Source: Alkalinema sp. FACHB-956 (lineage in GTDB: Bacteria; Cyanobacteriota; Cyanobacteriia; Leptolyngbyales; Leptolyngbyaceae). Taken from it: a DNA stretch of 42,200 nucleotides. Where the stretch lies: positions 1 to 42,200 of the forward strand of contig NZ_JACJRC010000037.1 in the NCBI RefSeq assembly GCF_014697025.1, read 5' to 3'. Under the pieces are notes generated by a model. The model saw only the letters and a list, made by a program, of their open reading frames with translations. It was not told where the DNA came from and ran no database searches. A program made the position numbers and the translations under genes. Shown here in pieces: positions 3,939-42,200 of this stretch; the first letter of the stretch is position 1; every line of letters starts with the position of its first letter.

Positions 3939-3974
3939 CGTTAGACGTTGCGCCTCTCTAAATAGTGAAACAAC

Positions 3975-4006: not shown

Positions 4007-4086
4007 CGCTGATTGAAACAACTCAACACCAACGCACTAGCATACGATGTCCCCGCGATCGGCTCAAGATGTTCTGAAAACAATTT

Positions 4087-4112: not shown

Positions 4113-4136
4113 TTGAACCCAGCACTGAACCAGGGT

Positions 4137-5624: not shown

Positions 5625-5785
5625 GAAGTTATATTAAGAAAGGTAAACATCTCTATCTTACCCCGTCTCATAAAAACAAGGACACATGCTCAATGTGCCC
5701 TGCGGGAGTGTGTTTTGAGATGGCATACTTTGAAAAAGTGTGTTCTGGCGGAGCATTTTTGCCCATCGACACCGTGAACGATGTC

Positions 5786-6103: not shown

Positions 6104-6238
6104 GGGTGTTAAATGCGATCGTTTGTGAAGGGCTTGACCTAACAAAATCATTCTAGTGTAGCGGCTAGAGGCAGACTAGGTAGGGGTTTCACTACTCAGC
6201 CCATCCCTACCGAGCTATCCCTACGAACCGAGCCAACG

Positions 6239-6280
6239 GCATTGATTCCCATGCATTGATTCCCATGCATTGATTTCTAT
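6239..6280. repeat. 14-bp tandem repeat, three copies
   Basis: GCATTGATTCCCAT at 6239-6252 and 6253-6266, with a variant third copy at 6267-6280. It lies between the DUF1825 gene and the 3' end of the J-domain gene. Confidence 0.88.
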
Positions 6281-26840: not shown

Positions 26841-27666
26841 ACCACATGGGGACAGCTCGGATGATTTCCCTTTTTCAGGATACTACTCATCGAAATTTCA
26901 CCTGAGGCCAAAGTGAAGACAATATGACGGTTCAATTACAGTTCACCTACAAACCCGGATGATGGGCCAAAAAAGGGGGGTGATTAGTTGATCTGATTAG
27001 TTGAACGGTGACTCAAGGACTGGCGATCCATCAAATCCATCGGCTTATGGTGATCTACCAACAAGGCTCTCTGGTGCGGATACATCGATCAAACTGATTC
27101 AGGCTGTTTGTAGGTCAAAGTTTAAGAATTACAAAGATGGACGTGCCCTCCGAGGCATTGCTAAGCACAATCGAACTATTCCGACCAACCTTTAACTTGG
27201 CTCGCTTCATGAGCCAACATCAAGTCATGAGCCAACATCGAGATTTTGGGTTGCAGTTATGATTGTAGGCTTCTACCTAGGGGGTAACGATCGTGGCCCC
27301 AGGCAGTTTTCTATGGATCCAAGCAAGCTGAATTAAACGCAAAGTTCACCTCGCACAAAGTCGGAATTACATGAAGAGTTTGCAAATCCTCCAGGGTCAC
27401 GAGGTTCAATAATTTCACGGAGGTGTTAGAAATGGGTTGGTGTTAAAAGGAACCATTTGACTTCTGCATGGTCTATTTCTACTAACGGCCTATTGCTACT
27501 AATGGTTTTTCCCGCGTATTTCAACTTTGTCTGCGGTAATTTTTGCATTAAGCCCCTATCTTGCAGTTAAGTTAAATCGCTATCAGTTTCGGCTATTTTG
27601 ATTTTTTGGCGTTCCACAGGTTGCTTCCCTATGGTTGTCCGATTCCATCCTAGTTCTAACCTCAGC
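26841..27666. other. Gene-free region before the polysaccharide export genes
   Basis: About 0.8 kb without a gene. A 64-codon frame from TTG 27001 resembles nothing and lacks a ribosome binding site. An 18-bp direct duplication lies at 27207-27224 and 27225-27242 (TCATGAGCCAACATCAAG, one change). The rest presumably carries the promoter of the export operon; I cannot place it. Confidence 0.5.
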
Positions 27667-29169
27667 ATGAAGCTGTTCCGCGTTGGCCGATTGAAGACCT
27701 GTGTGCTCGGGACTAGTCTGCTAGCAACTCTGGTTGGCCTGCTGCCCCCCAGTGCCTTCGCCCAAACTGCAATCCCCCGAAGATCGACCCAATTTCCCCC
27801 GAATGCAGTGGCTCCAGTCATCAACCGGCCTCCGATCGATGAGGACTATATCCTCGGCCCGGGCGATCGCGTCAGAATTGACGTCCAGAAAGCGCCGCAA
27901 TATTCCCTGGAAACCCAGGTATTGGTAGATGGCACTATTAGCTTGTTGCAATTTGGCTCCTTGCCCGTGCGCAACCTTTCCCTCACAGAAGCTACTGCCC
28001 GCGCCACTGAAAAATATCGCAAGGTGTTACGCTATCCCGTAGTAACCATTACACTAGTCACCCCACGCCCCGTCAAAGTCACTGTTGCAGGAGAAGTCAG
28101 CCGTCGGGGGGCCTACGATGTCACACTCAACCCCGTTAGTGATACGGGCAACACCGTTGGCTCCGCAAACCTCCCCACCCTCACTCGAGCCCTCAAGCTT
28201 GCCGGGGGCATTACTCAATCTGCAGACTTAAACCGCGTCGAAATTCGTCGAGCTCAGCGGGGTGGATCGGCTCAAGTTTACACCGTTAATTTGTGGGACT
28301 TTGTCCGCAATGGCGATACCAGCCAAGATGCTGTGCTACGAGATGGGGACTCCATTTTTGTTCCCACGGCAGCCAACTTGGACTTGAACGAGTCGTACCA
28401 ACTAGCCACAACCAGCTTTTCCGCAGAAAAAATTCAACCGCTTAACATTACAGTAGTCGGCGAGGTCTATCGGCCCGGTACCCATACAGTCGAAAGTAGC
28501 GTTCGGGTTCCTACTGCAGGTATTCCGGGGGAAGCAAGAGATTCTTTTAACCAAGCACGTATTTTCCCAACGCTTACCCGTGCCATTCAAACCGCTGGCG
28601 GGATCAAGCCTATGGCCAATCTGCGGAATATTGAAGTCCGACGAATCACTCAACAGGGGACTCAGCAGGTATTTAAGATTGATCTGTGGGCATTACTGCA
28701 AGCCGGTGATCAAACCCAAGATTTGATTTTGCAAGATCGCGATACTATTGTTATACCCCAGGCAACTAATTTAACGAATGCCGAAATTGCATCTGCATCT
28801 GCTGCTAGTTTTTCGCCCGATCGCATTCGTGTTGCCGTCATGGGTGAGGTGGGGACACCGGGTGTCATCGAAGTGCCTCCTAATACACCCTTGAATAAAG
28901 CTATTTTGACCGCAGGAGGCTTTAATAGCCGAGCCGTGCGCAATAAAGTTGATTTTGTCCGGCTCAATCCGGATGGTACCGCTGTGAAACGGGAGGTTAA
29001 GGTCGATTTAGCCGCAGGCTATGATGAAGCCAACAATCCACCACTTCGCAATGAAGATGTCATTATTGTGAAGCGCTCAGGGCTTTCCGTTTTTGGAGAA
29101 GCGGGTCAAGTCTTTGGGCCACTTGGTGGAATCGTGAGTGTGTTTCGAGCCATCTTTGGTGGGCCTTAA
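27667..29169 (+). CDS. Polysaccharide export protein (Wza-like, SLBB domains)
   Basis: A periplasmic/outer-membrane protein of the polysaccharide export family. From ATG 27667 the 500-residue protein begins with a signal peptide (MKLFRVGRLKTCVLGTSLLATLVGLLPPSAFAQT), then the Poly_export domain (DYILGPGDRVRIDVQKAPQYSLETQVLVDGTISLLQFGSLPV) and three SLBB units, each with VxVxGEVxRxGxY/H/V and a later LTRAxxxAGGI: near VKVTVAGEVSRRGAYDV, LNITVVGEVYRPGTHTV and VAVMGEVGTPGVIEV. It should form the exit channel of an exopolysaccharide pathway. ATG 27631 and TTG 27598 are in frame upstream, but the signal peptide fits 27667. The Wzc-like kinase gene follows after 82 bp, surely the same unit. No lipobox cysteine is seen. 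Confidence 0.9.
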   Translation: MKLFRVGRLKTCVLGTSLLATLVGLLPPSAFAQTAIPRRSTQFPPNAVAPVINRPPIDEDYILGPGDRVRIDVQKAPQYSLETQVLVDGTISLLQFGSLPVRNLSLTEATARATEKYRKVLRYPVVTITLVTPRPVKVTVAGEVSRRGAYDVTLNPVSDTGNTVGSANLPTLTRALKLAGGITQSADLNRVEIRRAQRGGSAQVYTVNLWDFVRNGDTSQDAVLRDGDSIFVPTAANLDLNESYQLATTSFSAEKIQPLNITVVGEVYRPGTHTVESSVRVPTAGIPGEARDSFNQARIFPTLTRAIQTAGGIKPMANLRNIEVRRITQQGTQQVFKIDLWALLQAGDQTQDLILQDRDTIVIPQATNLTNAEIASASAASFSPDRIRVAVMGEVGTPGVIEVPPNTPLNKAILTAGGFNSRAVRNKVDFVRLNPDGTAVKREVKVDLAAGYDEANNPPLRNEDVIIVKRSGLSVFGEAGQVFGPLGGIVSVFRAIFGGP

Positions 29170-29251
29170 GACGATCATCAAACTCAGGGCTCCATCCTGA
29201 AAATTACGCGATCCTCACTGCAACTGTTTGTCTAATCCCCTTGAGGTCAGA

Positions 29252-31480
29252 ATGGAAAGCGGATTTCCCCCATCAATTCCCCCCTCGTCTAATCCTGGAA
29301 ATAGTCAACGTCCTTCATGGCTACCTAGCATTGGAGGCAATCAATCTCGCCCTAACGAAGACAATGATGTTCTCGATATCGGCCAATTGCTGTCTCTTCT
29401 CAAAAGGCGGGCGGTGGTTATCCTGGGTGTCACCACAGTGGTTGCAACGGCGGCGGCGGCGAAAGGGAAACTAGATCCTACCTATCGAGCTACCCTGCAA
29501 ATTCTGACCCGTCCTGTGACGGCTGAAAATCAAGTAGTATCCTCCTTGCCCCAGGCCCTTCGAGAGGAGCAACGATCACCCTCTGGATCGGCTCGGGGCT
29601 ATGACGATACCAAACTGCGTCTATTAACCAGTCCAACCCTCGTTGATCCTGTTGTGGATCAGTTGAAGGGGAAATATCCAGACGTTAGTTACGGGTCGAT
29701 CGTTAAGGGATTGCAAGTCAAACCCGTGGGAGAAACAGATATCTTTGAAGTGCATTACATCGACTCCAGTAGTGAACGGGTCAAGGATATTCTAGATGCC
29801 CTCGGCAAACGCTACATTGACTACGCTCTCCAAGACCGATTGGCGGACACTAAAAAGGGGATTACCTTTATTGACGAGCAGTTGAAACCGTTAAAAGATC
29901 AGGTGAGCTATTGGCAAGGAAAATTGCAGTCCTTCCGGCAGCAGAACACCTTCTTTGACCCTGAGTCCCAAAGCCGAGAACTTTCAGATCAAATGGCCAA
30001 TTTTCGGCGGCAACGGCTAGAAAATGAAGTGCAGTTGAAGCAATCCATGGGGCTATACCAGGAATTACAAAATGAGATTGAACGATCTCCGAGCGATCGC
30101 ACCGCAACCCTCGCCCTGAGACAAAGTGAGACCTATAGACAACTATTAGGCCAATTGCTAGCCCTAGATACCAGGATTGCAGAACAGGGGAGCATTTATG
30201 AAGCCGGATCTGAAGACATGCAAATTCTTCGAGATAACCGGACAAAGCTCATGCCACTGTTGGAACGGGAAGCGGAACGTGTACGGGAAGAAGTCGCTAG
30301 CCAAGTGCGGGACTACGCCGAGCGCGACCGTGCCCTGCGCAAAACAGAGGATGAACTAGCACAACGGATTAAGAACCTATCCAATATTGCACGGGAGTAT
30401 ACTGATATTCAGCGGGAACTGAAAGTAGCGACAGATAACCTGGATCAATTCCTGGCGAAGCGATCAGCTCTCGATATTGATGCCGGCCAACGGCAAACGC
30501 CCTGGGAAATTGTCACACCCATCATCTCTCCCGAATTGGCGAGCTTACAGACGAATTTGCTCCTGGGCGGTGTACTGGGATTGGTCCTAGGCATCATTAG
30601 TGCTGTGATCGTCGATCGCATGAGTAATGTTTTCCACACCCCACAGGAAATTAAAAAAGCCAGTAAATTGCCGCTGTTAGGCATTATTCCCTTTAATCAA
30701 GAACTGGCTGCGGTTGGGGAGTCTCCTACCGCTGCTAGCCTTTTCCAACCTAATCGGATTTTACTGGCAGCGAATCACCCGAATGCCTTAGTAACCCTAC
30801 CCTTTTTAGAATCGTTCCGACTTCTCCAGACCAATCTGCGCCTCTTAAATGCCGATCGGCCTGTGCGATCGATTTCAATTAGTTCTCCCACCCCCCAGGA
30901 TGGTAAATCCACAACAGCAACCTATCTGGCTCAAGCGGCTGCTTCCATGGGGCAACGGGTGTTGCTGGTAGATACGGAGTTACGCTATCCCCAACTGCAT
31001 AGCCGATTTGGCTTATCCAATGCCCAGGGCCTGAGCGATCTCGTAGCCAGCCACGGCGATCCCCAAGCGTTTATCCAAGTATCCCCTTTAAATGACCAAA
31101 TTCATGTGCTGACCGCAGGACAATCCACTACGGATCCCATCACCCTGCTCTCCTCTCCCTATATGCAGGAGGTCATGGAACAGCTCCAGGAGCGCTACGA
31201 TTTAGTCATTTATGATACGCCTCCGCTAGCGGGTCTTTCGGATGCCCACTTAGTTGCAGCTAAAACCGATGGATTGTTGTTGGTGGCTCGGGTGGGCAAG
31301 ACCAACCGCGATGCCTACGAGCATGTAATGGAAACGCTCAACTTCCTGCCAACGAAGGTGTTTGGAGTGGTGGCGAACGATTCTCGCAAAGTGCCAAGCA
31401 ATTTATATACGTCCTACTATCTAGATTCAAACAACTCTCCGCCCAATACGCCGATTTCCACCCCGGTTGGTTCCCGATAG
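29252..31480 (+). CDS. Polysaccharide co-polymerase with BY-kinase domain (Wzc-like)
   Basis: An inner-membrane chain-length regulator and tyrosine kinase for exopolysaccharide export. The 742-residue protein has a Pro/Ser-rich start, a Wzz domain with first membrane segment (RRAVVILGVTTVVATAAAA), a long coiled coil (about 200-410), a second membrane segment (LLLGGVLGLVLGIISAVIVDR), then the cytoplasmic BY-kinase: Walker A SPTPQDGKSTTA (about 545), Walker A' VLLVDTELRYP and Walker B LVIYDTPPL. The C-terminus has a small tyrosine cluster, YTSYY (about 719-723), for autophosphorylation. Walker A' has Glu-Leu-Arg-Tyr where Asp-Leu-Arg-Arg/Lys is usual. ATG 29252 follows GAGG; a TTG eight codons earlier (29228) is less likely. 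No glycosyltransferase or flippase gene is adjacent. Confidence 0.9.
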   Translation: MESGFPPSIPPSSNPGNSQRPSWLPSIGGNQSRPNEDNDVLDIGQLLSLLKRRAVVILGVTTVVATAAAAKGKLDPTYRATLQILTRPVTAENQVVSSLPQALREEQRSPSGSARGYDDTKLRLLTSPTLVDPVVDQLKGKYPDVSYGSIVKGLQVKPVGETDIFEVHYIDSSSERVKDILDALGKRYIDYALQDRLADTKKGITFIDEQLKPLKDQVSYWQGKLQSFRQQNTFFDPESQSRELSDQMANFRRQRLENEVQLKQSMGLYQELQNEIERSPSDRTATLALRQSETYRQLLGQLLALDTRIAEQGSIYEAGSEDMQILRDNRTKLMPLLEREAERVREEVASQVRDYAERDRALRKTEDELAQRIKNLSNIAREYTDIQRELKVATDNLDQFLAKRSALDIDAGQRQTPWEIVTPIISPELASLQTNLLLGGVLGLVLGIISAVIVDRMSNVFHTPQEIKKASKLPLLGIIPFNQELAAVGESPTAASLFQPNRILLAANHPNALVTLPFLESFRLLQTNLRLLNADRPVRSISISSPTPQDGKSTTATYLAQAAASMGQRVLLVDTELRYPQLHSRFGLSNAQGLSDLVASHGDPQAFIQVSPLNDQIHVLTAGQSTTDPITLLSSPYMQEVMEQLQERYDLVIYDTPPLAGLSDAHLVAAKTDGLLLVARVGKTNRDAYEHVMETLNFLPTKVFGVVANDSRKVPSNLYTSYYLDSNNSPPNTPISTPVGSR

Positions 31481-31622
31481 AGGTCTCTCATGGATCCGTT
31501 CTAAAGGTTGGGTGACCCGAAATCCTTCGCGCCCCCAGATCTTGTCGCGATCGTTCAAGGGCTAAGGTCACCACATAGCCGAGGGTACCGGAAGAAAGGG
31601 GCCGATCGCGGCCTCGATCGAG

Positions 31623-32393
31623 CTAAGAACCCAGGCGTAGACGACGAGCAGTGGGTAGTTGCCACCAAGCCAGGTGGGGCATTTCGTGGTGCTCTTCGTG
31701 GTAGCCAAAGTGGTAGCAGGTGATAAACGACCAGAACTCTGATAGCGGCGTACTGCGGGCATGGCAGTCATTCTGGTAGCCTTCCTTCGGTTCACGGTGG
31801 GGTAAGAAGGTTCCAAAGAAAAACAGTTGAAAGGAACTGGCGACGGAGGGAACAACCCAAAACCAGGTCAAATTGGCTTCGGCGATCTGCAAAACTTGGT
31901 GCAGGGCGTGGAAGCTGCCAATGAGGAGAACTAAACGCATCCAACTCCAATAATTGACCATAAATTGGGCGTACCAGCCAAAAAAGTTAGACCAGCGCCC
32001 ATTGTGATAATCGGGATCACCCGATCGAGCGGGGATAGCATGGTGCAGATGGTGCATCTCAGCCATTTTTTTAAAAGGAAACATGGCATAGCAAAATAAG
32101 GCCACTTGCCCAATGCAATTGTTAAGCTGTCGATTGTGGGGCGCGATCGACCCATGCATGGCATCGTGGGCCGTCACAAACAAGCCGGTGTAGAGAAACA
32201 TTTGCCAGAGAAAGCCCAGTCCCCGCAAGCTCCAGGGGATTTGCTCCCAGTCAAGACTCAACAATACAGTCGTGCTGATAGCCCAAATCCCTAAAACACC
32301 GGAGGCCACAAGGACCCCACGAGATTGATTACGATCGGGCTTAGAAGTTACTGGTTGAAGCCGCCACACCCAATTCACCACCCAATCCACCAT
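31623..32393 (-). CDS. crtW: Beta-carotene ketolase CrtW
   Basis: A membrane di-iron oxygenase that adds 4-keto groups to beta-carotene, giving echinenone and canthaxanthin. The 256-residue protein has the family's histidine boxes in order: FVTAHDAMHG, MHHLHHAIPARSGDPDYH, FGTFLPHREPKEG and HFGYHEEHHEMPHLAWWQLP, with hydrophobic segments between them. Length matches cyanobacterial CrtW. The start is ATG 32393. It lies between the Wzc-like gene, with which it converges, and the divergent Hsp70-like gene. Echinenone and 3'-hydroxyechinenone are the ligands of orange carotenoid protein, but no OCP gene is in the window. The related CrtR hydroxylases have a different box pattern, so the call is firm. 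Confidence 0.94.
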   Translation of the reverse strand: MVDWVVNWVWRLQPVTSKPDRNQSRGVLVASGVLGIWAISTTVLLSLDWEQIPWSLRGLGFLWQMFLYTGLFVTAHDAMHGSIAPHNRQLNNCIGQVALFCYAMFPFKKMAEMHHLHHAIPARSGDPDYHNGRWSNFFGWYAQFMVNYWSWMRLVLLIGSFHALHQVLQIAEANLTWFWVVPSVASSFQLFFFGTFLPHREPKEGYQNDCHARSTPLSEFWSFITCYHFGYHEEHHEMPHLAWWQLPTARRLRLGS

Positions 32394-32556
32394 GGTTAGT
32401 TGCCTATCCTGTAAGAAGCTAAATATAAAACTTGATATATCTTAACGCTTCTTTACTAAATCCATGGGGATTGCGGGTTTGAGGGCCACGATTTCAGTCC
32501 AAATAGAGAGATTTGCTAGGATCTTGAAGTGGCATTGTTGGGCATTAAATTAACCT

Positions 32557-34164
32557 ATGACCTACGCGATCGACTTTGGGACGAGCAACACGGTGATTGC
32601 CCGTTGGAATGCAGTCAGTCAACAGGCTGAAACCTTATCGGTACCCGAGTTATCGCTCAAGCTGGCCCAAAATCCGCCGCTAATCCCCAGTCTGCTCTAT
32701 GTGGAGAACGCCGCCCGTGGCCAAGTGGTGGTGGGGCAGCCGGTGCGCGATCGCGCCTTGGATTTAGCCAGCGATACCCGGTTTTTTCGCAACTTCAAGC
32801 GCGGCATTGGCTCAGCGGTGCAAGGGTTTATTCCAGAGTTAGATGGTCGCACTGTGGAATTTCCCCAGGTGGGGCGTTGGTTTTTGGGGCAAGTGATTCG
32901 GCAGGCGAGTCAACTCAACCCCGATGTTCTGGATTCAATCGTCTTTACGGTCCCCGTTGATAGCTTTGAAGCCTATCGGCTCTGGTTAGGCCAAGTGTGT
33001 GAGGACTTGCAAATTAACCAAGTGCGGATGTTGGATGAGCCGACAGCCGCCGCCTTGGGCTACGGTTTGGCCAACCAAGAATGTCTATTGGTTGTGGATT
33101 TTGGCGGCGGCACTTTAGATTTGTCCCTGGTGCAACTGGATACCCGAGTCATCCAGCAATCTGGGGGGCAATCCTTGGGCTTTATTTTGAAGTGGGGCCA
33201 AAAATCCTTTGCGGAGGAGTCTGGCCAAAAGGTGAAAACGGCGCGGGTTCTGGCCAAGGCCGGCCAGAACTTGGGTGGGGCAGATATTGACCATTGGCTG
33301 GTGGATCATTTTGTTCAAACCCAAGGCTTGCAGGTTAGTCCGGTCACCACCCGGTTAGCGGAACGGTTAAAGATTGCCCTATCGCTGCAACATCAAGCCC
33401 AAGAAGTGTTTTTTAACGACGAAACCTTTGAAAGCTATGAACTGGCCCTTACCCGCGATCGCTTCAACGATATTCTCCAAGAACACCAGTTTTTTGCCCG
33501 CTTGGACGAGGCGATGAACCAAGTGCTCCAGCAGGCGCAACGGCAGGGCTTGGCGCTTCAGGACATTGGGGCCGTGTTACTCGTTGGCGGCACCTCCCAA
33601 ATTCCCGCTGTGCAAACCTGGCTGCACCAGTATTTTGATCCCAGCAAGATTCGATCGGATAAACCCTTCGAAGCGATCGCCCAAGGGGCTCTGCAACTCG
33701 ATCGGGGGGTGGAACTCAAGGATTTCCTGTACCACGGCTATGGAGTGCGTTTTTGGGATCGCCGGATCAATGCCCACAACTGGCATCCCATTATTCGGAC
33801 AGGTCAACCCTATCCCATGGAAAAAGCGGTCGAAATCGTTTTGGGAGCCTCGCGGGAAAATCAACCGAGTATTGAACTGATTATTGGTGAACTGGGTAAC
33901 GAAACGGGACAAACGGAAGTGTATTTTGATGGGGATCGCTTAGTCACCCGCAATCTTTCTAGTCAAACGACGACGGTGCAGCCGCTGAATGACAAGGAGG
34001 GAGCACGGAACATTGCAGAGCTCGATCCACCGGGAGTGCCAGGGAGCGATCGCATCAAGGTGCAATTTCAGGTAGATGCCAAACGCTTTTTGCGCATTAC
34101 CGTCGAAGATTTGTTGACCCAACGCACCCTTGTAGAGGATCAGCCGGTCGTGCAATTGAGCTAG
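32557..34164 (+). CDS. Hsp70-family ATPase without a clear substrate lid
   Basis: A 535-residue Hsp70-like protein. The nucleotide-binding domain is present: AIDFGTSNTVIA at the N-terminus, LDEPTAAALGYG, LLVVDFGGGTLDLSLVQ, and LLVGGTSQIPAVQTWL. It also has a HscC/YegD-type feel in the early PLIPSLLYV and a short C-terminus (about 130 residues) with beta-strands (IELIIGELG, KVQFQVDAKRFLRITVEDLL) but no helical lid like that of DnaK. It is therefore a specialised Hsp70 relative, not DnaK. Substrate and co-chaperone are unknown; the J-domain protein at 6.4-7.3 kb is a possible partner by domain logic only. ATG 32557 starts it, divergent from crtW with 163 bp between. Confidence 0.88.
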   Translation: MTYAIDFGTSNTVIARWNAVSQQAETLSVPELSLKLAQNPPLIPSLLYVENAARGQVVVGQPVRDRALDLASDTRFFRNFKRGIGSAVQGFIPELDGRTVEFPQVGRWFLGQVIRQASQLNPDVLDSIVFTVPVDSFEAYRLWLGQVCEDLQINQVRMLDEPTAAALGYGLANQECLLVVDFGGGTLDLSLVQLDTRVIQQSGGQSLGFILKWGQKSFAEESGQKVKTARVLAKAGQNLGGADIDHWLVDHFVQTQGLQVSPVTTRLAERLKIALSLQHQAQEVFFNDETFESYELALTRDRFNDILQEHQFFARLDEAMNQVLQQAQRQGLALQDIGAVLLVGGTSQIPAVQTWLHQYFDPSKIRSDKPFEAIAQGALQLDRGVELKDFLYHGYGVRFWDRRINAHNWHPIIRTGQPYPMEKAVEIVLGASRENQPSIELIIGELGNETGQTEVYFDGDRLVTRNLSSQTTTVQPLNDKEGARNIAELDPPGVPGSDRIKVQFQVDAKRFLRITVEDLLTQRTLVEDQPVVQLS

Positions 34165-34203
34165 CCTCCGGCCATCCAGGTCGCCGACGTTTAAACTTGT
34201 AAA

Positions 34204-35430
34204 CTAACTGGCCCAAGGAATCGTTGTTTCCAGGGTGGCGGGTCGGCAATTGGGCAGGCGGACGGTAAACGTTGTGCCTTGACCTAGCTGACTTTCAAAG
34301 GAAATATGTCCATTGTGAGCGTCAACACATTGCTTGACGATCGCCAAGCCCAATCCCGTGCCTTGAATCATGCCAACATTGGAAGCTCGGTAGAACAGCT
34401 TGAAGAGATTGGCTTGATCCTCCGGAGGAATCCCAATTCCTGCATCTTTTACGACTAATCGCACCTCATCCTCACTCTGGATGAGTTCCACCTCAATGGG
34501 ACTGTTTTGGGGGGAGTATTTCAGTGCATTTAATAACAAATTCGTCAGAATATGTTTGGTGAGCTTTGGATCTAGAAACGCTGGAATGACCGGCTCTGCG
34601 GTTGGAGCTTGACTGTTGATCACGGCACTGTTGATCACGGTACTGTTGATTACCGCATTGTTGATCACAGCACTGTTGATTACCACCAACTGAATTTCAT
34701 GGTTCTGAATGTCCACAGCCTTGGTTTCATCAATAATCTTTTGACAAAACTCTTGAAGATTGACGGCAACTGGATAACAGGCAATGGCTCGCGTCGTGGA
34801 TTCGTTCATGATGAGAACATCCTCTAGCATTTCCCGTAGATGTTCTAGGGCCGATCGCGCTTGATTGAGATAGGTTTGTCGCTTGATGGGAGTGAGCTTG
34901 GCGGGGTAATTTTCCAGCATATCCAACGTGATGGAAATAATACTCAGCGGCGTTCGGAATTCGTGGGAAACGAGGCCAATAAACTGGGACTTGAGTTGAT
35001 TCAGTTCTCGCTCGCGCTCTAGGGCTTTTTGAATGGCGATTTCCGCTTGATATTTGCTGATCGCAATTTCGATCGTGGTAATCAAGTCCTTATTGGAGAA
35101 AGGTTTAATCACATAGCCAAAGGGTGAAACGGTTTTAGCTTGTTCTAACGTGACTTGATCGGCATGGGCGGTGAGAAACACCACTGGAATGTTATAGGTC
35201 GATCGAAGTTGATCCGCAATATCAATCCCCGCCATCACGCCATTCAAACAGATATCCATCAAAATCAAATCTGGCCGAGTCTGCTCTACAAGGGCGATCG
35301 CGGCTTCCGCTGAATCGGTAATGCCCACGACTCCGTAGTTTAAAGCGACCAATCGACGTTGTAAGTCCATGGCAATAATGGGCTCATCTTCGACGACCAG
35401 GATTTGAGTATTGGGTTGCATGTTGAGCAT
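34204..35430 (-). CDS. Hybrid receiver-histidine kinase
   Basis: A 408-residue cytoplasmic protein with an N-terminal receiver (VVEDEP, Asp59 in LILMDICLNG, Lys109 in YVIKPF) joined by a helix to a HisKA domain (FIGLVSHEFRTPLS, His156) and a HATPase domain (N-box NLLLNALKYSP, G1 DAGIGIPPED, G2 GTGLGLAI). Receiver-then-kinase proteins usually act in the middle of a phosphorelay. Within the ATPase domain, residues 249-273 are five tandem pentapeptides of the type AVINS, coded by a 15-bp DNA repeat. I chose ATG 35430; ATG 35421 and TTG 35478 are also in frame. The HisKA_2 kinase gene lies 146 bp upstream on the same strand, so it is probably the partner. Confidence 0.9.
   Translation of the reverse strand: MLNMQPNTQILVVEDEPIIAMDLQRRLVALNYGVVGITDSAEAAIALVEQTRPDLILMDICLNGVMAGIDIADQLRSTYNIPVVFLTAHADQVTLEQAKTVSPFGYVIKPFSNKDLITTIEIAISKYQAEIAIQKALERERELNQLKSQFIGLVSHEFRTPLSIISITLDMLENYPAKLTPIKRQTYLNQARSALEHLREMLEDVLIMNESTTRAIACYPVAVNLQEFCQKIIDETKAVDIQNHEIQLVVINSAVINNAVINSTVINSAVINSQAPTAEPVIPAFLDPKLTKHILTNLLLNALKYSPQNSPIEVELIQSEDEVRLVVKDAGIGIPPEDQANLFKLFYRASNVGMIQGTGLGLAIVKQCVDAHNGHISFESQLGQGTTFTVRLPNCRPATLETTIPWAS
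34612..34686. repeat. In-frame 15-bp repeat inside the hybrid kinase gene
   Basis: Five 15-bp units built on ACTGTTGATCACGGC-type sequence code for VVINS, AVINN, AVINS, TVINS and AVINS. The unit length keeps the reading frame, so copy-number change would lengthen or shorten a surface loop without breaking the gene. Confidence 0.9.
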
Positions 35431-35576
35431 CCGCAAGATAAACGAAGGAAAACCAACTGGGAAAGTACGATTGACCAAAAGACGAGTCCTAGGACTCTAT
35501 TTTCCTTAACCTGAGCCTCAACCTTCCGAGATTGGCCCCTTATCCGAGATTAACCCTTTCAAGGATGACTGATCCA

Positions 35577-36839
35577 CTACGCTTTCCTAAATTGAATCAC
35601 AAATTGGCTTCCCCCCCTGCGCTCCACCTCCAGCGTACCTCGTAATTTGGCAGTCAGTGCCGTCACTAATTGAAACCCCAAGGAGTCCGTCCGATGAATA
35701 TCGACACTGGTGGGTAAACCAATGCCATCATCACCAATCATCAATCTACAAATTTGCTCAGGACTTTGCTGGAACGTGCAACGGATGGTGCCTGACACCT
35801 GATTGGGAAAGGCATATTTGAAGGCATTGGTCATCAGTTCATTCATGATCAAGCCACAGGGAATTGCTTGGTCTACCGTCAGATGAACCGATTCAAGATT
35901 TAAATCTAGTGTAAGACGGTGATCATCCTGGCAATAGGATCGGAATAGGTTAGTGGCAAGTTGCTCTGCATACTCTCGAAAATTGATATGACGCACCTGG
36001 GAGGACTGGTAAAGCTGTTCGTGGATCAATGCCATGGCTTGAATACGCGCTTGGGCATCGGCAAAGGGCCCGATCGTGCTGGAGTCTTCGATCGAGCTTG
36101 ATTGAAGATTGAGCAAGCTCGACACCATTTGCAGATTATTTTTAATGCGATGGTGAACTTCCTGGAGAAAAATCTCTTTTTCGTGCAGCGCTTGAAAGAG
36201 TTGATTCTCCTTACTTTTAAAGGCAGTCACATTGTGGATTATCGCCAGAACTGATCCTACTTTGCCCATCTCATCGAGTTCTGGCAGCAAACGGACTTGG
36301 TAAGACTGTAAGGCGGAAGGGTGTTGATTGCTAAACTCAAAACACGCTTGATTTTTTTTGACAAAGACACGTTGTAACTGCTGACACCAAAGATCACGTT
36401 CCAATGGCGGAATGGTGAATTCCAAGAGCTGTTTCCCAATCATTGCATCGGGGGTCACACCATACTCGTTGAATACGACAGGGTTGACATAGGTGCAGGA
36501 GAGTTGGCGATCGAACCGAATAATCACGTCGGGGGATTGTTCCACCAGTAACTGAAACAGATACTTCTGCTGTTTCAGGTCTTGCTGCATCGCATTCATC
36601 ACCTGAGCTTGGTGGATAATCTGACGCTCTAGGTCACCATTGATTTCCTGAAGGGCTGCTTCCCGCGCTTTTAAGGCTTTAATTTCTGCTTCTAGAATTT
36701 CTGCTTCTAGAACAGTGATTGCAGGGACGGGGGCGAAACCGCTTGCCGGGGGATTGAGTTGTGGTGGATCCCCCTGAGATGACTCAGTTGTTTGCAGATC
36801 AGAGTTGGACAGGGGTTCGATTGAATGGGGTGTAACCAT
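35577..36839 (-). CDS. PAS-domain histidine kinase of the HisKA_2 class
   Basis: A 420-residue soluble sensor kinase. A disordered start (residues 1-42) and a coiled coil (about 43-93, with LEAEILEAEIKALKAREAAL) lead to a PAS domain (about 93-207: LFQLLVEQSPDVIIRFDRQLSCTYVNP...), then HisKA_2 with EIFLQEVHHRIKNNLQMVSSLLNLQ (His229/His230) and a HATPase with N-box NELMTNAFKYAFP and GDDGIGLP. The PAS lacks the GXNCRFLQ flavin motif of LOV domains, so the ligand is unknown. ATG 36839 is preferred over TTG 36866. The receiver-kinase gene follows after 146 bp and the large regulator is divergent, so these three probably form one pathway, although partnership is inferred from position only. Confidence 0.9.
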   Translation of the reverse strand: MVTPHSIEPLSNSDLQTTESSQGDPPQLNPPASGFAPVPAITVLEAEILEAEIKALKAREAALQEINGDLERQIIHQAQVMNAMQQDLKQQKYLFQLLVEQSPDVIIRFDRQLSCTYVNPVVFNEYGVTPDAMIGKQLLEFTIPPLERDLWCQQLQRVFVKKNQACFEFSNQHPSALQSYQVRLLPELDEMGKVGSVLAIIHNVTAFKSKENQLFQALHEKEIFLQEVHHRIKNNLQMVSSLLNLQSSSIEDSSTIGPFADAQARIQAMALIHEQLYQSSQVRHINFREYAEQLATNLFRSYCQDDHRLTLDLNLESVHLTVDQAIPCGLIMNELMTNAFKYAFPNQVSGTIRCTFQQSPEQICRLMIGDDGIGLPTSVDIHRTDSLGFQLVTALTAKLRGTLEVERRGGSQFVIQFRKA

Positions 36840-37212
36840 CTCTTGTATCGCGCGATCGATAAACAATCTCTAAAAAAATCTCTGTGGGAATTTCCATCTA
36901 GAAATTGACAGCAAAGTAACGAGCAACTAAGGCAATGATCCCATCAACATCGAATGCTTCCCACCAATGCTTCCTACCCAAGTGTAGCCCTGAAAGACAG
37001 ATGATGCTTTTCGTCACACAATCTATTGTACGATATCCCATGGATCATGGCATCTACATAACTAAATTTAAAATAACTAATTCCGATCGCAAAGAATAAT
37101 GATGAATCATGGTGTTGTCCCCGTCGGTCATAGTCCATAGATATATCCCATAGATTAAGAGCCCATCAGATTAAGAGCCCATCCGGGATTGGCTGCGGGA
37201 TGAGCCGGGTCG

Positions 37213-37228
37213 TGTGATCAATCTCACA
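37213..37228. promoter_or_regulatory. Candidate CRP (SyCRP1-type) binding site
   Basis: TGTGATCAATCTCACA matches TGTGA-N6-TCACA exactly. It lies 263 bp upstream of the large regulator's ATG and 374 bp upstream of the PAS kinase's ATG. The match to the cAMP-receptor consensus is seen; binding is inferred. Confidence 0.6.
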
Positions 37229-37243
37229 GAAAAGCTGTGAGAT
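37221..37243. other. 9-bp inverted repeat overlapping the CRP-type site
   Basis: ATCTCACAG (37221-37229) and CTGTGAGAT (37235-37243) are perfect arms with a 5-nt loop. The left arm shares TCACA with the CRP-type site, so a hairpin or a second half-site arrangement (TCACA...TGTGA) could compete with it. Confidence 0.55.
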
Positions 37244-37398
37244 TATTGCGATATTAGACAATCTATGGAATAACCTTGATCTTTCGCTGCACCGAGACTC
37301 ATCTAAAGCACATTTACAGCCGATAAAGCCTATTGTGGAGAGGATGGCTTAACTACTGAGAGCTAGAACCCCGTTAGCTGCCATAGTTAAGAATCCCC

Positions 37399-37404
37399 TA
37401 TAAT
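37399..37404 (+). promoter_or_regulatory. Possible -10 box of the large regulator gene
   Basis: TATAAT lies 87 bp upstream of the ATG at 37491. A matching -35 box is not clear at the usual distance, so an activator-dependent promoter or a chance match is possible. Confidence 0.3.
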
Positions 37405-37490
37405 CTCGGTGCAATTGAATAAACTCCTTCAGCGTATCTTAAGCGTAAATTGTTGAAGACTTAAATGGTTGAAGTCTCGATAGGTTTGTA

Positions 37491-39959
37491 ATGAAAATCT
37501 TGCTGGTAGAAGATAACCAGTACCTTGCTCAGCAACTAGCCGACGCTCTATCCATACAGCGTTATACAGTTGATGTTGCCTTTGATGGCCTAGAGGGCTG
37601 GGAGTATCTACAGGGTGCTGATTATGATTTAGTCATTTTGGATGTGATGCTTCCGAGACTAGATGGTGTCAGCTTGTGCCGTCGTATTCGGGACTGTGGG
37701 AATCAGATTCCTATTTTGATGCTGACGGCCCGAGGCACGAGCCAAGACAAAATTGAAGGATTAGACGCTGGGGCCGATGATTATCTGACTAAGCCCATTC
37801 GGGTTGAAGAGTTGGGCGCGAGAATCCGTGCCCTGTTGCGGCGGGGTGGCCATCGAGAGGCCTCTCCCATTTTGAGTTGGGGCGATTTAACCCTGAATCC
37901 CAATCTTTGCGAAGTATTTTATGCGGGGCAACCTCTCCCCTTGACGCCCAAAGAATATTCGTTGCTGGAACTCTTCATGCGCAATCAGCAGCGGGTTTAT
38001 AGTCGTCAAGCCATTCTGGATCAACTGTGGTCGCTATCCGATGATTTACCCGGCGAAGATACGGTGAAATCCCACATCAAGGGACTGCGGCAAAAACTTA
38101 AGGCCGTGGGGGCCAAAGATCTAATTGAAACGGTGTATGGATTAGGGTATCGGTTAAATAGCGCCTATCTGAAACCTGTAGCGAAGTCAGAGCCAGCTCC
38201 AGAGGGCATGGCTTCCCCCCTGTCGTTAGGCGATCCAAAGAGTCCGTTGCCTAACCCTGATGTCCCTGAGGCAGGGACGCAAAATTCCTTTAAGCGCTAC
38301 TCAATTTTAATCGTCGATAACCGAACGACTTGGGCCGATACGGTTTTCTCTAGCGCCAATTTTCAGTATTTTCGGGTGCAAGTGGCTACCTCCCTAGCCA
38401 GGGTTCAAGAGGCATTGACGAACCATTGGCCAGATTTAGTCATTGCATCACTCTCCTTTGAATCCGGTTGTGAAACCTTTCTGACGATGTTTCAGAGCTT
38501 GTCCGAGAATATGCCGGACAGTCCCGTGCTCATTCTGACGGATGGAGACTCCTTCAACGATCGCCGAACGGTAATGGGCTACCAGTATGCAGGTTTCCTC
38601 GATCGATCGAGCCCAGCCCAAATCATTTTAGAGACGTTGCAGTCTCTGCTGGAATGCCCAAGCACGGCCAATCCATCAACCCTGTTAGTCGTCAGCGATA
38701 GTGTAACGACGGGACAACTGATTACCTCCTTGCTGTCTCCTTGGGGGCTACAGGTGCATGTCCTCTACGACCTCCAAGCGCTGTGGCAAAGCCTAGAGAC
38801 CACTCCCCCCAATTTGTTAATCCTGGACAGCCAAGCCTTTTCTGGGGCGAGCTTTGAAGTCTGTCAACTCCTGCGTCAGGATCGGCGCTGGGGCTGGTTG
38901 CCGATTATGATGCTGGGGGCATCTACCCCAGAGGAAATTCAAAAAGCGTTTACCTCAGGGGCGGATGATTTTGCGAGTTTGCCAATTATTGGCTCAGAGA
39001 TGGTAACCAGAATTTTGAATCGCTTGGAAAGAACTCAAGTGTTGCGATTGCATCCAGAAATCGATCGCTTAACTGGACTGGCTCAGCGATCGGCGGCCAT
39101 TCAAGAATTCAATCGCTTGATCCAACTGGCTAAGCGGTCTCAGATTGTTAATTATTTTGGCATTTTGTCGATCGATAACTTGCAAATGATTAATGAACGA
39201 TACGGCTATCAAGTTGGCGATCAAGTCTTAAAACAAGTCGGGCAATGTCTCTTACAGCACACCCGATCGGGGGATATTGTGGCTCGGTGGGGGGGCGCGA
39301 CCATCGTTGTTGGAGGCTATGGCGCAACGGAACAAGAAGGCAATGAAGAGATTGCCCTGGTTTTAGAGCATTTGCGCAGTCAGCCTCTCCCATTACCCCA
39401 GGGTGGAGACTTGGCTATTACCTTTAGTGCAGGAGTCACCCAATATCCCACCCATGGACAGACCTTACAAGCGCTCTATCAGGCGGCTGAAGCTGCTTTA
39501 AACACCGCCCGCGATCGGGGGGGCAATCAAGTGGTTGCGACAAGTCAGTTATCCGATCGTGCGCCCTTGATTACCGTCTTACAGGGGGATCCGACCAGTT
39601 CTCAACGGTTGAGCCAAAGCTTGCAGACCCGTGGCCATCAAGTGACCCTTCAGTCCAGCAGCCAACAAGCCCAGGCTGATTTAGTCGCCAATGCTCAAAC
39701 GGGTAGACTCCAAATTTTATTTTTATCTGAGGATATCGCGCCAGACAGTGGCCTGAAATTTCTCAAATGGCTCATGAAGCAGCCCCACAATACTTCTACA
39801 TTGCGAGTTATTTGGCTAGCGAAGGACACCCAAGAAGCTGAGCGTGCTGTTCAGTTGGGCGCTGCGGAATATGTCCTCTATCCCTACGAATCTGCAGCTA
39901 TTCTTCAAGCCTTTACCCGGTTACAGGCCAGCCATGATCCGCATTATTCCCGGTCTTAG
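37491..39959 (+). CDS. Multi-domain OmpR-type regulator with extra receivers and degenerate GGDEF
   Basis: An 822-residue regulator. Residues 1-120 are an intact receiver (VEDN, Asp51 in LVILDVMLP, Lys in YLTKPI). Residues about 128-225 are an OmpR/PhoB winged helix (LTPKEYSLLELF, SHIKGLRQKLK, ETVYGLGYRL). Then come three receiver-like domains (about 270-385, 397-515 and 693-815) and, between the last two, a GGDEF-like domain (about 525-690). In receiver 2 the phospho-Asp is Ala (VIASLSF). Receiver 3 keeps Asp (LLILDSQ) but has Leu for Lys. Receiver 4 has Ser (LFLSED) and Tyr. The GGDEF signature is GGATI (RWGGATIVV), so cyclase activity is not expected. ATG 37491 starts it. The likely input is the divergent kinase pair. 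Confidence 0.88.
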   Translation: MKILLVEDNQYLAQQLADALSIQRYTVDVAFDGLEGWEYLQGADYDLVILDVMLPRLDGVSLCRRIRDCGNQIPILMLTARGTSQDKIEGLDAGADDYLTKPIRVEELGARIRALLRRGGHREASPILSWGDLTLNPNLCEVFYAGQPLPLTPKEYSLLELFMRNQQRVYSRQAILDQLWSLSDDLPGEDTVKSHIKGLRQKLKAVGAKDLIETVYGLGYRLNSAYLKPVAKSEPAPEGMASPLSLGDPKSPLPNPDVPEAGTQNSFKRYSILIVDNRTTWADTVFSSANFQYFRVQVATSLARVQEALTNHWPDLVIASLSFESGCETFLTMFQSLSENMPDSPVLILTDGDSFNDRRTVMGYQYAGFLDRSSPAQIILETLQSLLECPSTANPSTLLVVSDSVTTGQLITSLLSPWGLQVHVLYDLQALWQSLETTPPNLLILDSQAFSGASFEVCQLLRQDRRWGWLPIMMLGASTPEEIQKAFTSGADDFASLPIIGSEMVTRILNRLERTQVLRLHPEIDRLTGLAQRSAAIQEFNRLIQLAKRSQIVNYFGILSIDNLQMINERYGYQVGDQVLKQVGQCLLQHTRSGDIVARWGGATIVVGGYGATEQEGNEEIALVLEHLRSQPLPLPQGGDLAITFSAGVTQYPTHGQTLQALYQAAEAALNTARDRGGNQVVATSQLSDRAPLITVLQGDPTSSQRLSQSLQTRGHQVTLQSSSQQAQADLVANAQTGRLQILFLSEDIAPDSGLKFLKWLMKQPHNTSTLRVIWLAKDTQEAERAVQLGAAEYVLYPYESAAILQAFTRLQASHDPHYSRS

Positions 39960-40185
39960 CAATTTTGCTGTTTTATTCTCTGGCTGTTTTACTCTCTGGC
40001 TGTTCTCTCCCCTAGCATTCTTCCCAGAATCTTTCCCAGGTGGTTGGGAGGTTCCCAGAGGGTAGGAGAGCCCAAGGGGGTGGGAGAGACCACGTAAGTG
40101 GGAGAGCCCAAGGGGTGAGTATGCAGATAACGCTGGCTTCGGTCTCGTGGATGGAATTGATTGTCTAGGGAATGGATGCTCTGAA

Positions 40186-40350
40186 AACAAAAAAACTCCT
40201 CAGGTATCTTCTGAGCGCTTCCGAAAAGTTGAAATAATTACAACTCTACGAAATTCACTAAGTGAGATATCTGAGGCAGGTGTTTTGTCCTTTTGATCTT
40301 TCGCACAATATTTATAGTAAATAGGAATTGTGAAGAAAAAGGGTAGATCC
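40186..40350. repeat. Duplicated structured element, copy A
   Basis: Homologous to 40631-40782. It contains an outer inverted repeat (40198-40209 with 40265-40276; CCTCAG...CTGAGG ends, 11 of 12 pairs plus one G-T), inner AGTTG/CAACT and TCACT/AGTGA arms, and the conserved 12-mer GATCTTTCGCAC (40295-40306). No function known to me; an RNA element or an insertion-sequence remnant are both possible. Confidence 0.75.
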
Positions 40351-40504
40351 TCTACAAGAATTCTTTAGCCAGATGAACGAGATTTGCTATCCTCTGGTGG
40401 CCTTAATTTGGATATCCCCTCGATGACCCGACCCTCAAAGGTTCCGCCAGATCAGGAGTTTCCCTGCCCAGCTCTGGGAAGGGGTGAACTACTGCCCAGT
40501 CTCC

Positions 40505-40632
40505 CACAGGTTCACAATTGAGTTACATACTCACACAGGTTCACAATTGAGTCGCATACGATAAGTTACATGCAATGAGTCGCATATGATAAGTCACATA
40601 CAATGAGTCGCATACAAAAAACAAGTTGCATA
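40505..40632. repeat. 28-bp minisatellite
   Basis: About four units of 28-29 bp. The clearest are 40549-40576 and 40577-40604 (GAGTCGCATA...CAAT). The first unit (40520-40548) is diverged and the last is partial from 40605. CACAGGTTCACAATTGAGT also occurs twice (40505-40523, 40534-40552). The units are contiguous, with no spacers. Confidence 0.8.
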
Positions 40633-40782
40633 CAAAAAACCTCAGAATTAACTTAGGAATTCCGATCAAGTATTGCAACTATGAACGGAATTTGCTAAGT
40701 GAAACTCTGAGGAAGGATTTGTCCTTATTAGATCTTTCGCACACTCCCCCATAGTAGGTAGGAAAAGTGGAAAAATCGGGTA
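40631..40782. repeat. Duplicated structured element, copy B
   Basis: Homologous to copy A at 40186-40350, diverged by substitutions and small gaps. It keeps the outer CCTCAG (40640-40645) and CTGAGG (40707-40712) arms, CTAAGTGA, and the 12-mer GATCTTTCGCAC (40731-40742). It lies about 50 bp past the stop codon of the minus-strand unrecognised gene, where it could act as part of its 3' end. Confidence 0.75.
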
Positions 40783-40832
40783 TTTTTTGCAATCAATCTG
40801 GATAGAAAAAATGCCCGGATCACGCTCATGGA

Positions 40833-41582
40833 TTAAGCGATCGCGGGCATTTGGTAGACTTCCGAATGGGAGGGGAATCCATAGGGATCCTCTATGGGGA
40901 ACTGAGCTCTAAACCGTCGCAGTATGGGATATAACGCTTTCACCCAGTTCAGTAACACTTGATCCTGCTTGATTAAGACAGCATAACTAGAAGACTGTAA
41001 ACTGACCCAGAATTCATAGCCATCTCGACTAGGGGTTACAATCACGGGAACTTTCTGTTCTTGTAGCACCCAAGCAACAATACAAGCATGACCTCGTTGG
41101 TGACTCGAAATTTGGTAGACTCGACCATACAAGGTTCCGTCATACAATAAACCTTCCCGAACTGCACCATCATAATAGAAGGCATATCGGGAAAATTGTG
41201 TGTTTTCTGCCACCATGGGAAGCTGGGCAGATAGAGGCCACCGCAAGTTCAGAGCCTGAAAGAGTTGCTGTTGAACAGCATAGAGTTGATCAGAGGTGTC
41301 CGTTTGCTCAGATTTGCTCGCCGTTTCCGATAGTTCGTGATATAGAGAAATGAGGGTCTCTAAGTGTTGATGTCTCGCCGATCGCCGCTCCGGCAGTGCA
41401 GATAGCTGGGGCTTGGTGTCCAACGAAGTCGCTGTTGTTGCGCTGGAGTGATGAATTAAGGGAGCCGCGCTCAGGTACTGACTGAGCAATTTACGCAGAC
41501 GATAGCGAGAAATGGGCGATAGTTGCTGAATTTCTTTCTTTTGTAATTCGGTGATGATGGGGGAAGTGTTAAAGGCCCGCAT
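40833..41582 (-). CDS. Unrecognised protein
   Basis: A 249-residue protein that I cannot assign to a family. The N-terminal half is helical and rich in Ser, Gln and Leu (ITELQKKEIQQLSPISRYRLRKLLSQYLSAAP, then HLETLISLYHELSETASK...LYAVQQQLFQALNL). The C-terminal half is more beta-like (YAFYYDGAVREGLLYDGTLYGRVYQISSHQRGHACIVAWVLQEQKVPVIVTPSRDGYEFWVSLQ) and ends in a basic/aromatic helix. There is no signal peptide or membrane segment. I chose ATG 41582 because AAGGAG lies 7 nt upstream; an ATG at 41600 is also in frame. A consensus CRP-type site lies about 140 bp upstream, hinting at cAMP control. Coding looks real by length and ribosome binding site. Confidence 0.75.
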   Translation of the reverse strand: MRAFNTSPIITELQKKEIQQLSPISRYRLRKLLSQYLSAAPLIHHSSATTATSLDTKPQLSALPERRSARHQHLETLISLYHELSETASKSEQTDTSDQLYAVQQQLFQALNLRWPLSAQLPMVAENTQFSRYAFYYDGAVREGLLYDGTLYGRVYQISSHQRGHACIVAWVLQEQKVPVIVTPSRDGYEFWVSLQSSSYAVLIKQDQVLLNWVKALYPILRRFRAQFPIEDPYGFPSHSEVYQMPAIA

Positions 41583-41696
41583 AGAGCAACTCCTTGGCAT
41601 GAGGTAGCAATGGAAACGTGAGCCGTGAATCGAAAGCTGTGGATCGAAGTTAACTAAGATTTTAGAAATAGATCGTGTAAAACCTGAGAAATTTCA

Positions 41697-41709
41697 GTTG
41701 TGACACAAC
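41697..41709. promoter_or_regulatory. 13-bp palindrome upstream of the unrecognised gene
   Basis: GTTGTGACACAAC is a perfect palindrome around a central base, 13 bp before the CRP-type site and about 115 bp upstream of the start codon. It could be a regulator site; which one is unknown. Confidence 0.4.
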
Positions 41710-41721
41710 CTGCAACTATGA

Positions 41722-41737
41722 TGTGAGCCAGATCACA
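41722..41737. promoter_or_regulatory. Candidate CRP (SyCRP1-type) binding site
   Basis: TGTGAGCCAGATCACA matches TGTGA-N6-TCACA exactly. It lies 140 bp upstream of ATG 41582 on the minus strand. Its right half is the first copy of a four-copy repeat, which supplies further TCACA half-sites. Confidence 0.6.
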
Positions 41738-41781
41738 AGCCTAGATCACAGGTCTGGATCACAAGTCTAGATCACAAGCTG
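41730..41781. repeat. 13-bp tandem repeat of CRP half-sites
   Basis: Four contiguous units of AGATCACAAGCCT type at 41730-41742, 41743-41755, 41756-41768 and 41769-41781. Each contains GATCACA, a half of the CRP consensus. Confidence 0.85.
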
Positions 41782-41873
41782 ATTGCGCGTTTGCCAGTCT
41801 CGCCCAGAATCAATCAGCAATATTATGGTTGATCCAAATCAACCTTTTTTCTAGCGTAGCGGTTCGTAACCCG

Positions 41874-42099
41874 ACGTGAGTTCGATAAATTCGTGGTAAG
41901 GCGCGATCGTCGGGGCTGCTCCGCAGCGAAGATCGGGGAACTTCTCTCCTCAAGGCAGTTTGCTCTGGCATTGCGTCAGAGAAACCGCCTTGCCCCCTGC
42001 AATATCAGGGGACTCTACTCCCCCGACACCCCCGAAAGTGAGTTCTCCGTCCAAGCACAGGAGATTTGTGAGGAACAATTTGGCTTGTCGAACTCACGT
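41874..42099. mobile_element. MITE-like element or insertion-sequence remnant
   Basis: ACGTGAGTTCGA (41874-41885) is repeated inverted and exact at 42088-42099, bounding about 226 bp. Inside are a CTGC/GCAG hairpin near 41917-41927, a long imperfect stem (41951-41967 with 41977-41992) and a CCCTG/CAGGG hairpin (about 41996-42011). A 69-codon frame inside resembles no transposase I know. Terminal repeats, size and internal folding suit a non-autonomous element; no target-site duplication is evident. Confidence 0.55.
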
Positions 42100-42162
42100 T
42101 AACCCGGGGGCTTGGGGGATCAAATCTATAGTATTGATCAATCAATTGGGTATGAAAAACCA

Positions 42163-42199
42163 CAGCAATTCTCAGTATGGCAATTCAGCTAGTATTGGG
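42163..42199. repeat. Right copy of 37-bp terminal inverted repeat
   Basis: Exact reverse complement of positions 2-38. The flanking inner sequences differ completely from the left side. Confidence 0.85.
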
Positions 42200-42200
42200 T

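Follow-up and report, generated by a model that had tools for sequence, protein, structure and literature searches.

In proteins of the PleD type, ligand binding cross-links the GGDEF and receiver domains, while PopA, a c-di-GMP effector of the order REC-REC-variant GGDEF, has an I-site and no DNA-binding domain. Dead GGDEF proteins that work through protein contacts have reportedly been described as well (PMC5635695). The I-site of CbrR from Campylobacter, a protein of the order REC-REC-variant GGDEF, reads KGRD and is where c-di-GMP binds; the protein seemingly also makes a little c-di-GMP in E. coli (PMC8779298), so that a variant GGDEF domain need not be dead. VCA0965, which has AGDEF, reportedly retains activity as well (PMC3974145). 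For cyanobacteria, published reports describe CdgK/CdgS of Anabaena, a phosphorelay to a REC-GGDEF cyclase (PMC9927289), and Dgc2 of Leptolyngbya boryana, a CHASE2-PAS-GGDEF protein (PMC10581220). Judging from the open-access literature, transcription factors controlled directly by c-di-GMP seem little studied in cyanobacteria. Here we analyse a predicted regulator in which a dead GGDEF domain stands behind a DNA-binding front end; the window is the whole stretch of DNA examined, 42,200 nucleotides long.

Results

The gene starts with ATG, encodes 822 residues and occupies exactly 37491-39959 on the plus strand in the list of open reading frames. A sequence-only reading of the window had described its product as an OmpR-type regulator joined to three more receivers and a GGDEF domain, and Pfam, our own HMMs and an AlphaFold model bear this out. 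All the domains for which that reading proposed a search are found by Pfam: Response_reg in four stretches (1.1e-53 for the whole protein), Trans_reg_C at residues 146-222 (4.5e-22) and GGDEF (PF00990) at residues 524-680 (4e-28). The domain limits given below were set by HMMs built from the regulator's own family.

37491..39959, plus strand: gene for the 822-residue regulator, REC1-wHTH-REC2-REC3-GGDEF-REC4 (ORF, Pfam, family HMMs, AlphaFold model)
37494..37841, plus strand: REC1, residues 2-117, with a complete phosphorylation set (D51, T79, K101; Pfam, alignment, model)
37911..38159, plus strand: OmpR/PhoB winged helix, residues 141-223 (Trans_reg_C 4.5e-22), with putative recognition helix EDTVKSHIKGLRQKLK
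38160..38300, plus strand: linker of 47 residues, 224-270, site of the Hpt domain in relatives
38301..38654, plus strand: REC2, residues 271-388, pseudo-receiver, acceptor Asp and Lys lost (alignment, model)
38679..39029, plus strand: REC3, residues 397-513, pseudo-receiver that retains Asp446 but has lost the Thr and the Lys (alignment, model)
39057..39533, plus strand: degenerate GGDEF, residues 523-681 (PF00990, PleD and DgcR alignments, structural matches)
39168..39170, plus strand: Ser560, where a cyclase has the first Asp of its metal-binding DxD site (alignment to PleD and 158 family members)
39264..39275, plus strand: intact I-site motif RxxD, R592-S-G-D595 (alignment to PleD)
39291..39305, plus strand: GGATI, residues 601-605, in place of GG(D/E)EF (ORF translation, alignments)
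39570..39926, plus strand: REC4, residues 694-812, aspartate-less receiver (own REC HMM 1.9e-13; predicted fold)

The AlphaFold model, for which 31 named homologues were part of the input (pLDDT 85, pTM 0.51), gives all four receivers, the winged helix and the GGDEF domain their expected folds, with a helix at 501-520 that runs from REC3 into the GGDEF domain. The linker 231-267 has pLDDT below 50 and the mutual arrangement of the domains is uncertain in the model. Receiver and GGDEF folds are predicted throughout residues 271-815, as the sequence-only reading had expected, and this rules out a back end lacking such folds. A structure search finds PleD chains for residues 269-686 (Z 24.5-25.1); the rmsd is 16.5-18.8 over three domains, since these are placed differently in the two proteins, and the matches are evidence for domain order and folds rather than for arrangement. 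Residues 396-683 match DgcR, the GGDEF domain matches other GGDEF domains at Z of about 23-26, and the REC1-wHTH front end returns regulators of the RpaA/PhoB type. That front end has what defines an OmpR/PhoB regulator, namely a receiver with acid pocket, Asp, Thr and Lys and a C-terminal Trans_reg_C domain. The rest has the REC-REC-GGDEF order and fold of PleD-type proteins, and lacks their GG(D/E)EF and pair of metal ligands (GGATI, Ser560).

Aligned key residues confirm that REC1 is the only receiver with the full phosphorylation set (E7, D8, D51, T79, Y98 and K101). REC2 has Ser320 in place of the acceptor Asp and Arg in place of the Lys; REC4 has Ser746 and Tyr at these positions. For REC3 the loss of the Lys had been noted, which we also find (Leu497), and the damage is greater than was stated: Asp446 is present, while the first pocket acid has become Ser and the Thr Gly476. 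Intact active sites in the later domains are thereby ruled out. All three later receivers have the receiver fold with at least one of the five key residues missing, which makes them pseudo-receivers by a definition given in PMC12632262, and their residues predict that normal phosphorylation of REC2 to REC4 is impossible. The intact REC1 residues and winged helix support the suggestion of a DNA-binding output with a single phosphorylatable receiver. In the family at large, Asp and Lys are present in 117/125 REC1s and in 151/158 REC3s, so that a broken REC3 like this one is rare. The Asp is absent from 25 of 35 REC4s, that is, from 22/22 cyanobacterial ones and 3/13 from other phyla. As an observation on the latter, the non-cyanobacterial Hpt-REC-REC-GGDEF-REC proteins (L179, L187, L188, L190, L193 and others) keep the REC4 Asp in 10/13 cases, against 0/22 in cyanobacteria.

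The functional roles by which we label sites in the GGDEF domain (metal Asp, guanine contacts) are those that we take the aligned PleD residues to have. The dead signature GGATI had been noticed before, and the residues agree with it, adding Ser560: besides the first metal ligand the second is gone (Ala603), and the adjacent residue is Thr rather than Glu. The guanine contacts Asn568 and Asp577 are present, as is Asp562. These contacts, the intact RxxD and the missing family Hpt had not been part of the earlier description. At the position aligned with PleD R390, presumably a further I-site Arg, the regulator has Leu, which counts against binding of c-di-GMP, though an Arg is found there in only 8/158 family members. 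Among these 158 the GGATI signature occurs in the regulator only. The domain is thus, going by its residues, a GGDEF of the PopA/CbrR kind, with RxxD and with predicted inactivity; it is probably unable to make c-di-GMP, and because RxxD is kept, binding of c-di-GMP by the regulator is a reasonable possibility.

With the regulator from residue 224 onward as query, relatives were found at 1e-40 in 24/42 genomes of the taxonomic family and at 1e-60 in at least 92/388 sampled genomes of the class, its own genome included in both; three candidates were scored per genome in the class search, making 92/388 a lower bound, and the order-level search gave the same 42 genomes as the family search. A first scan of genome contigs with a single protein as query confirmed nothing. 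From a scan of named genomes, 66 of the best 80 of 305 relatives are titled cyanobacteria; the other 14 of these best 80 carry the titles Actinomycetes, Acidobacteria and kin, Armatimonadetes, Gemmatimonadetes and Deltaproteobacteria, and their loci hold mostly Hpt-REC-REC-GGDEF-REC proteins. Related plasmid proteins occur in Leptolyngbya boryana and Leptolyngbya sp. NIES-3755, and in public plasmid records relatives bear the names 'response regulator', 'two-component transcriptional regulator' or 'two-component transcriptional regulator/diguanylate cyclase'. The loci examined in the regulator's own genome include paralogues with the same front end, four of them REC-wHTH-Hpt-REC-REC and one REC-wHTH-Hpt-REC-GGDEF. 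In Leptolyngbyaceae cyanobacterium CSU_1_3 (L130), a 259-residue ORF at 3548-4327 overlaps the start of an Hpt-REC-REC-GGDEF-REC ORF at 4284-6269, perhaps a split or frameshifted gene.

Among 106 distinct multi-domain homologues, 61 are REC-wHTH-Hpt-REC-REC-GGDEF and 9 have an additional C-terminal REC. The regulator is homologous to this cyanobacterial family, in the same order, over the domains that they share. Four of the 106 (the regulator, L035, L041 and L046) have its own order with no recognisable Hpt; three truly lack one, since L046 has 153 residues there that match no Hpt model. The spacer between wHTH and REC2 is 47 residues long in the regulator, against about 150 including Hpt in relatives, and neither Pfam nor our own HMMs match an Hpt in it, which together rule out a hidden one. 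The remark that no characterised protein has this order stands in part: we recognised no published study of the REC-wHTH-Hpt-REC-REC-GGDEF family among the top-ranked open-access papers searched, but the order is not isolated, being an Hpt-deleted form of a common architecture, and L035 and L041 rule out that it is unique to the regulator. The family is widespread in cyanobacteria, and the regulator is one of its members, worn and without an Hpt. Across 125 REC-wHTH proteins both metal ligands are lost in 11/11 without Hpt and in 31/114 with it, a link that depends on some six changes and is without significance in a tree-aware test of 3 to 6 independent pairs.

In a 98-row REC3-GGDEF tree the regulator lies inside a 15-row set of dead GGDEFs (support 97), and with six joined domains (66 rows, 714 columns) it lies in a 21-row clade (SH-aLRT 99). 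It is still in the clade at 97 when the GGDEF columns are omitted, with or without REC4. The 66-row tree left out L031, L028, L027, L029, L122, L165 and L186, as well as non-clade rows without REC1, wHTH, REC2 or REC3; the remaining non-clade rows were thinned to 45 (40 random and 5 with REC4). L027 and L029 fell within the clade in the 98-row and 158-row trees. The 158-row REC3-GGDEF tree places the regulator outside the clade, beside another long branch (support 81), and a position outside is not rejected by an AU test (p 0.39). In the six-domain tree it is the longest branch of the clade. Our alignments and trees suggest that the regulator is most likely a member or sister of this dead-GGDEF clade, in which, as in the regulator, both metal ligands and the REC4 Asp are lost.

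Both metal ligands are kept by 99/158 family GGDEFs, 82 of which have RxxD; one is lost in 12, 4 of which have RxxD; and both are lost in 47, 21 of them in the one clade, the regulator included, and 26 elsewhere. The clade, which was delimited after the trees had been seen, thus lacks both ligands in 21/21 cases. Its dead domains keep RxxD in 20/21 cases, against 5/26 outside (Fisher p 1.3e-7, treating sequences as independent), and from this contrast RxxD would not simply be carried along in a dead domain, though the clade counts as one lineage and the contrast accordingly has little independent support. Counting L027 and L029 in the clade gives 20/23 inside and 5/24 outside. By parsimony RxxD changes once within the clade and 18 times outside; outside the clade, a tree-aware test of whether catalysis and RxxD are lost together gave no significant result, being too weak with 3 to 6 independent pairs. 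The REC4 Asp is absent in 16/16 clade members that have REC4, 10 of which have Glu there and the regulator Ser. As to whether the degenerate sites noted earlier recur in homologues, the lost metal ligands and the lost REC4 Asp do so clade-wide, while the broken REC3 is rare and GGATI unique.

The putative recognition helix is of a kind found in most of the family, where K, L, R, K and L stand at helix positions 9, 11, 12, 14 and 15 in 119-124 of 125. Some paralogues in the same genome have closely similar helices (ENTVKSHIKGLRQKLK in L002, EEAVKSHIKALRQKLK in L003), with L007 and L118 differing more. By analogy with the family we infer that this helix reads DNA, and operators common to the regulator and these paralogues are plausible from the likeness of their helices.

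Just upstream, on the other strand, lie two kinases.

34204..35478, minus strand: REC-HisKA-HATPase kinase (Pfam), candidate partner by proximity
35577..36866, minus strand: PAS-HisKA_2-HATPase sensor kinase, divergent neighbour (Pfam), candidate partner by proximity

Five window neighbours compared with the ORFs of the best 80 of 305 loci led us to reject a gene order common to relatives: the HisKA_2 kinase and the Hsp70-like protein have one match each, nothing matches the 255-residue protein or the desaturase, and the REC-kinase has 64 matches, the best at 26-30% identity, as expected for any kinase. Of ten neighbour proteins chosen from 8 of these best 80 of 305 loci, four are hybrid kinases. 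The window also contains an Hsp70/MreB-like protein of 535 residues at 32557-34164, matched only in part by HSP70, and a 255-residue protein at 40833-41600 for which neither Pfam (up to E 1) nor NCBIfam gives a match. A polysaccharide export protein (Poly_export, SLBB) and a Wzz/ParA-type protein lie at 27598-31480, a few kilobases before the regulator, to which any link would be a guess. About 550 bases downstream of the regulator gene is a direct-repeat array at 40501-40640, with a 14/28-base period (TGAGTCGCATACGA-like) and a 29-base pair, that has no second match in its own genome; it is flanked by an imperfect 38-base direct repeat (74% alike) at 40270-40307 and 40706-40743, ending GATCTTTCGCACA. 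A promoter and terminator scan gave no excess over shuffles, and no Rfam families were found in 30000-42200.

Discussion

The explanation that we prefer, giving it an even chance of being right, is a PhoB-type regulator switched by one phosphorylation of REC1 and fused to a PopA-like dead PleD module that senses c-di-GMP. A histidine kinase would phosphorylate D51 of REC1, the single switch of the REC1-winged-helix front end, and this would drive dimerisation as in PhoB. In its ancestral form the back end is likely to have been a diguanylate cyclase tied to a phosphorelay (Hpt, receivers, GGEEF); in the regulator the Hpt appears to have gone, REC2 to REC4 to have been disabled and both cyclase metal ligands to have been lost. 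The GGDEF domain would now be a c-di-GMP receptor by way of its intact RxxD, for which CbrR offers a precedent. Bound there, the ligand may link GGDEF to receiver domains, within a chain or between two, and thereby either favour or prevent a dimer of the DNA-binding front end. Since ligand binding would alter front-end dimerisation, one protein could combine the input from a kinase with the level of c-di-GMP. The organism itself is a probable producer of c-di-GMP, because its genome has 13 matched GGDEF stretches, the regulator included, and one of them has an intact GGEEF: a REC-GGDEF protein at 19500-20552 on the same contig, by its residues likely an active diguanylate cyclase.

How else could such a back half be accounted for? 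It might be a docking scaffold that binds no ligand and tunes REC1-wHTH by contact with kinases, receivers or active cyclases, RxxD being a leftover. Three of the four receivers are pseudo-receivers, the absence of the REC4 Asp from 22/22 cyanobacterial REC4s makes an unphosphorylated contact role look old, and dead GGDEF proteins said to act through contacts offer a precedent. However, RxxD is usually gone from dead GGDEFs outside the clade (21/26), and here the base-contact residues are also kept. We regard this as possible but rather unlikely. The sequence-only reading had proposed a C-terminal scaffold, of which the receiver and GGDEF folds stand; a bare scaffold is somewhat less favoured than ligand sensing because RxxD is kept while much else has changed.

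Alternatively, the protein may simply be decaying: with the Hpt deleted, relay and cyclase function would have been lost in turn, leaving selection on REC1-wHTH alone and the rest as ballast. The regulator's branch, at 1.1 changes per site the longest in the clade, suits this, and so do the clade-conserved columns kept by REC2 (9/13), REC3 (31/46, the lowest share in the clade) and REC4 (11/25), set beside 39/43 in REC1 and 26/26 in the winged helix. The GGDEF domain, on the other hand, keeps 34/42, and four clade members keep no larger a share; the roughly 600 C-terminal residues are free of stops, folds are predicted confidently throughout, and similar dead GGDEFs persist in named genera, e.g. 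Calothrix, strains of which carry a clade member, all of which makes decay unlikely in our view. The genus of the source organism is represented by 1 genome. The conserved-column pattern would fit a retained GGDEF role with relaxed receivers. It is more improbable still that the GGDEF domain retains some activity, or that it binds and senses GTP instead of c-di-GMP. The guanine contacts Asn568 and Asp577 are kept, and variant GGDEF proteins such as CbrR (PMC8779298) and VCA0965 with AGDEF (PMC3974145) can retain activity; yet both metal ligands are gone here (Ser560, Ala603), with Thr instead of Glu right after Ala603.

If the sensor reading is true, a single chain takes in both a kinase signal and c-di-GMP and gives its response at a promoter. 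Because some paralogues in the same genome have a recognition helix very like its own, its operators may also be those of relay-bearing sister proteins, with which it would then compete. More generally, we propose tentatively, and with some doubt, that a cyanobacterial PhoB-type clade converted a built-in phosphorelay-controlled cyclase into a c-di-GMP sensor; the regulator, its relay parts gone or disabled, would be a greatly reduced form of it. Should the former product-inhibition site be where the clade binds c-di-GMP, this would show how an enzyme within a transcription factor becomes a sensor, and the 158 GGDEF-bearing members (99 with both metal ligands, 47 with neither) are a ready set for testing that step. 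What is new here is the clade-wide loss of catalysis together with retention of the putative c-di-GMP site inside a predicted transcription factor.

Among known systems, the module behind the front end is like PleD, whose domain order and folds are matched by residues 269-686 and whose RxxD is kept; the regulator differs in lacking the metal ligands and GGEEF and in being fused behind a DNA-binding regulator. CbrR resembles it in its receivers and non-canonical GGDEF with an I-site (KGRD; PMC8779298) but has no DNA-binding domain, where the regulator has a winged-helix output. Dgc2 of Leptolyngbya boryana differs from it in kind. Like aspartate-less and pseudo-receivers as defined in PMC12632262, REC2 and REC4 lack the Asp and REC3 the Lys; unlike them, the regulator has three in one chain behind a normal receiver. 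Its REC1-wHTH is 39-40% identical to 1kgs and RpaA in structural alignments, while regulators of the RpaA/PhoB type are without its C-terminal extension of about 600 residues of signalling domains. Also close are the cyanobacterial REC-wHTH-Hpt-REC-REC-GGDEF(-REC) regulators, with the same type of recognition helix. Three of them, L127 (FACHB-471), L128 and L129, are 39-43% identical to the regulator and have the same order apart from the Hpt; they carry Hpt and REC4, whereas the regulator has lost the Hpt and has a dead REC3 and GGATI.
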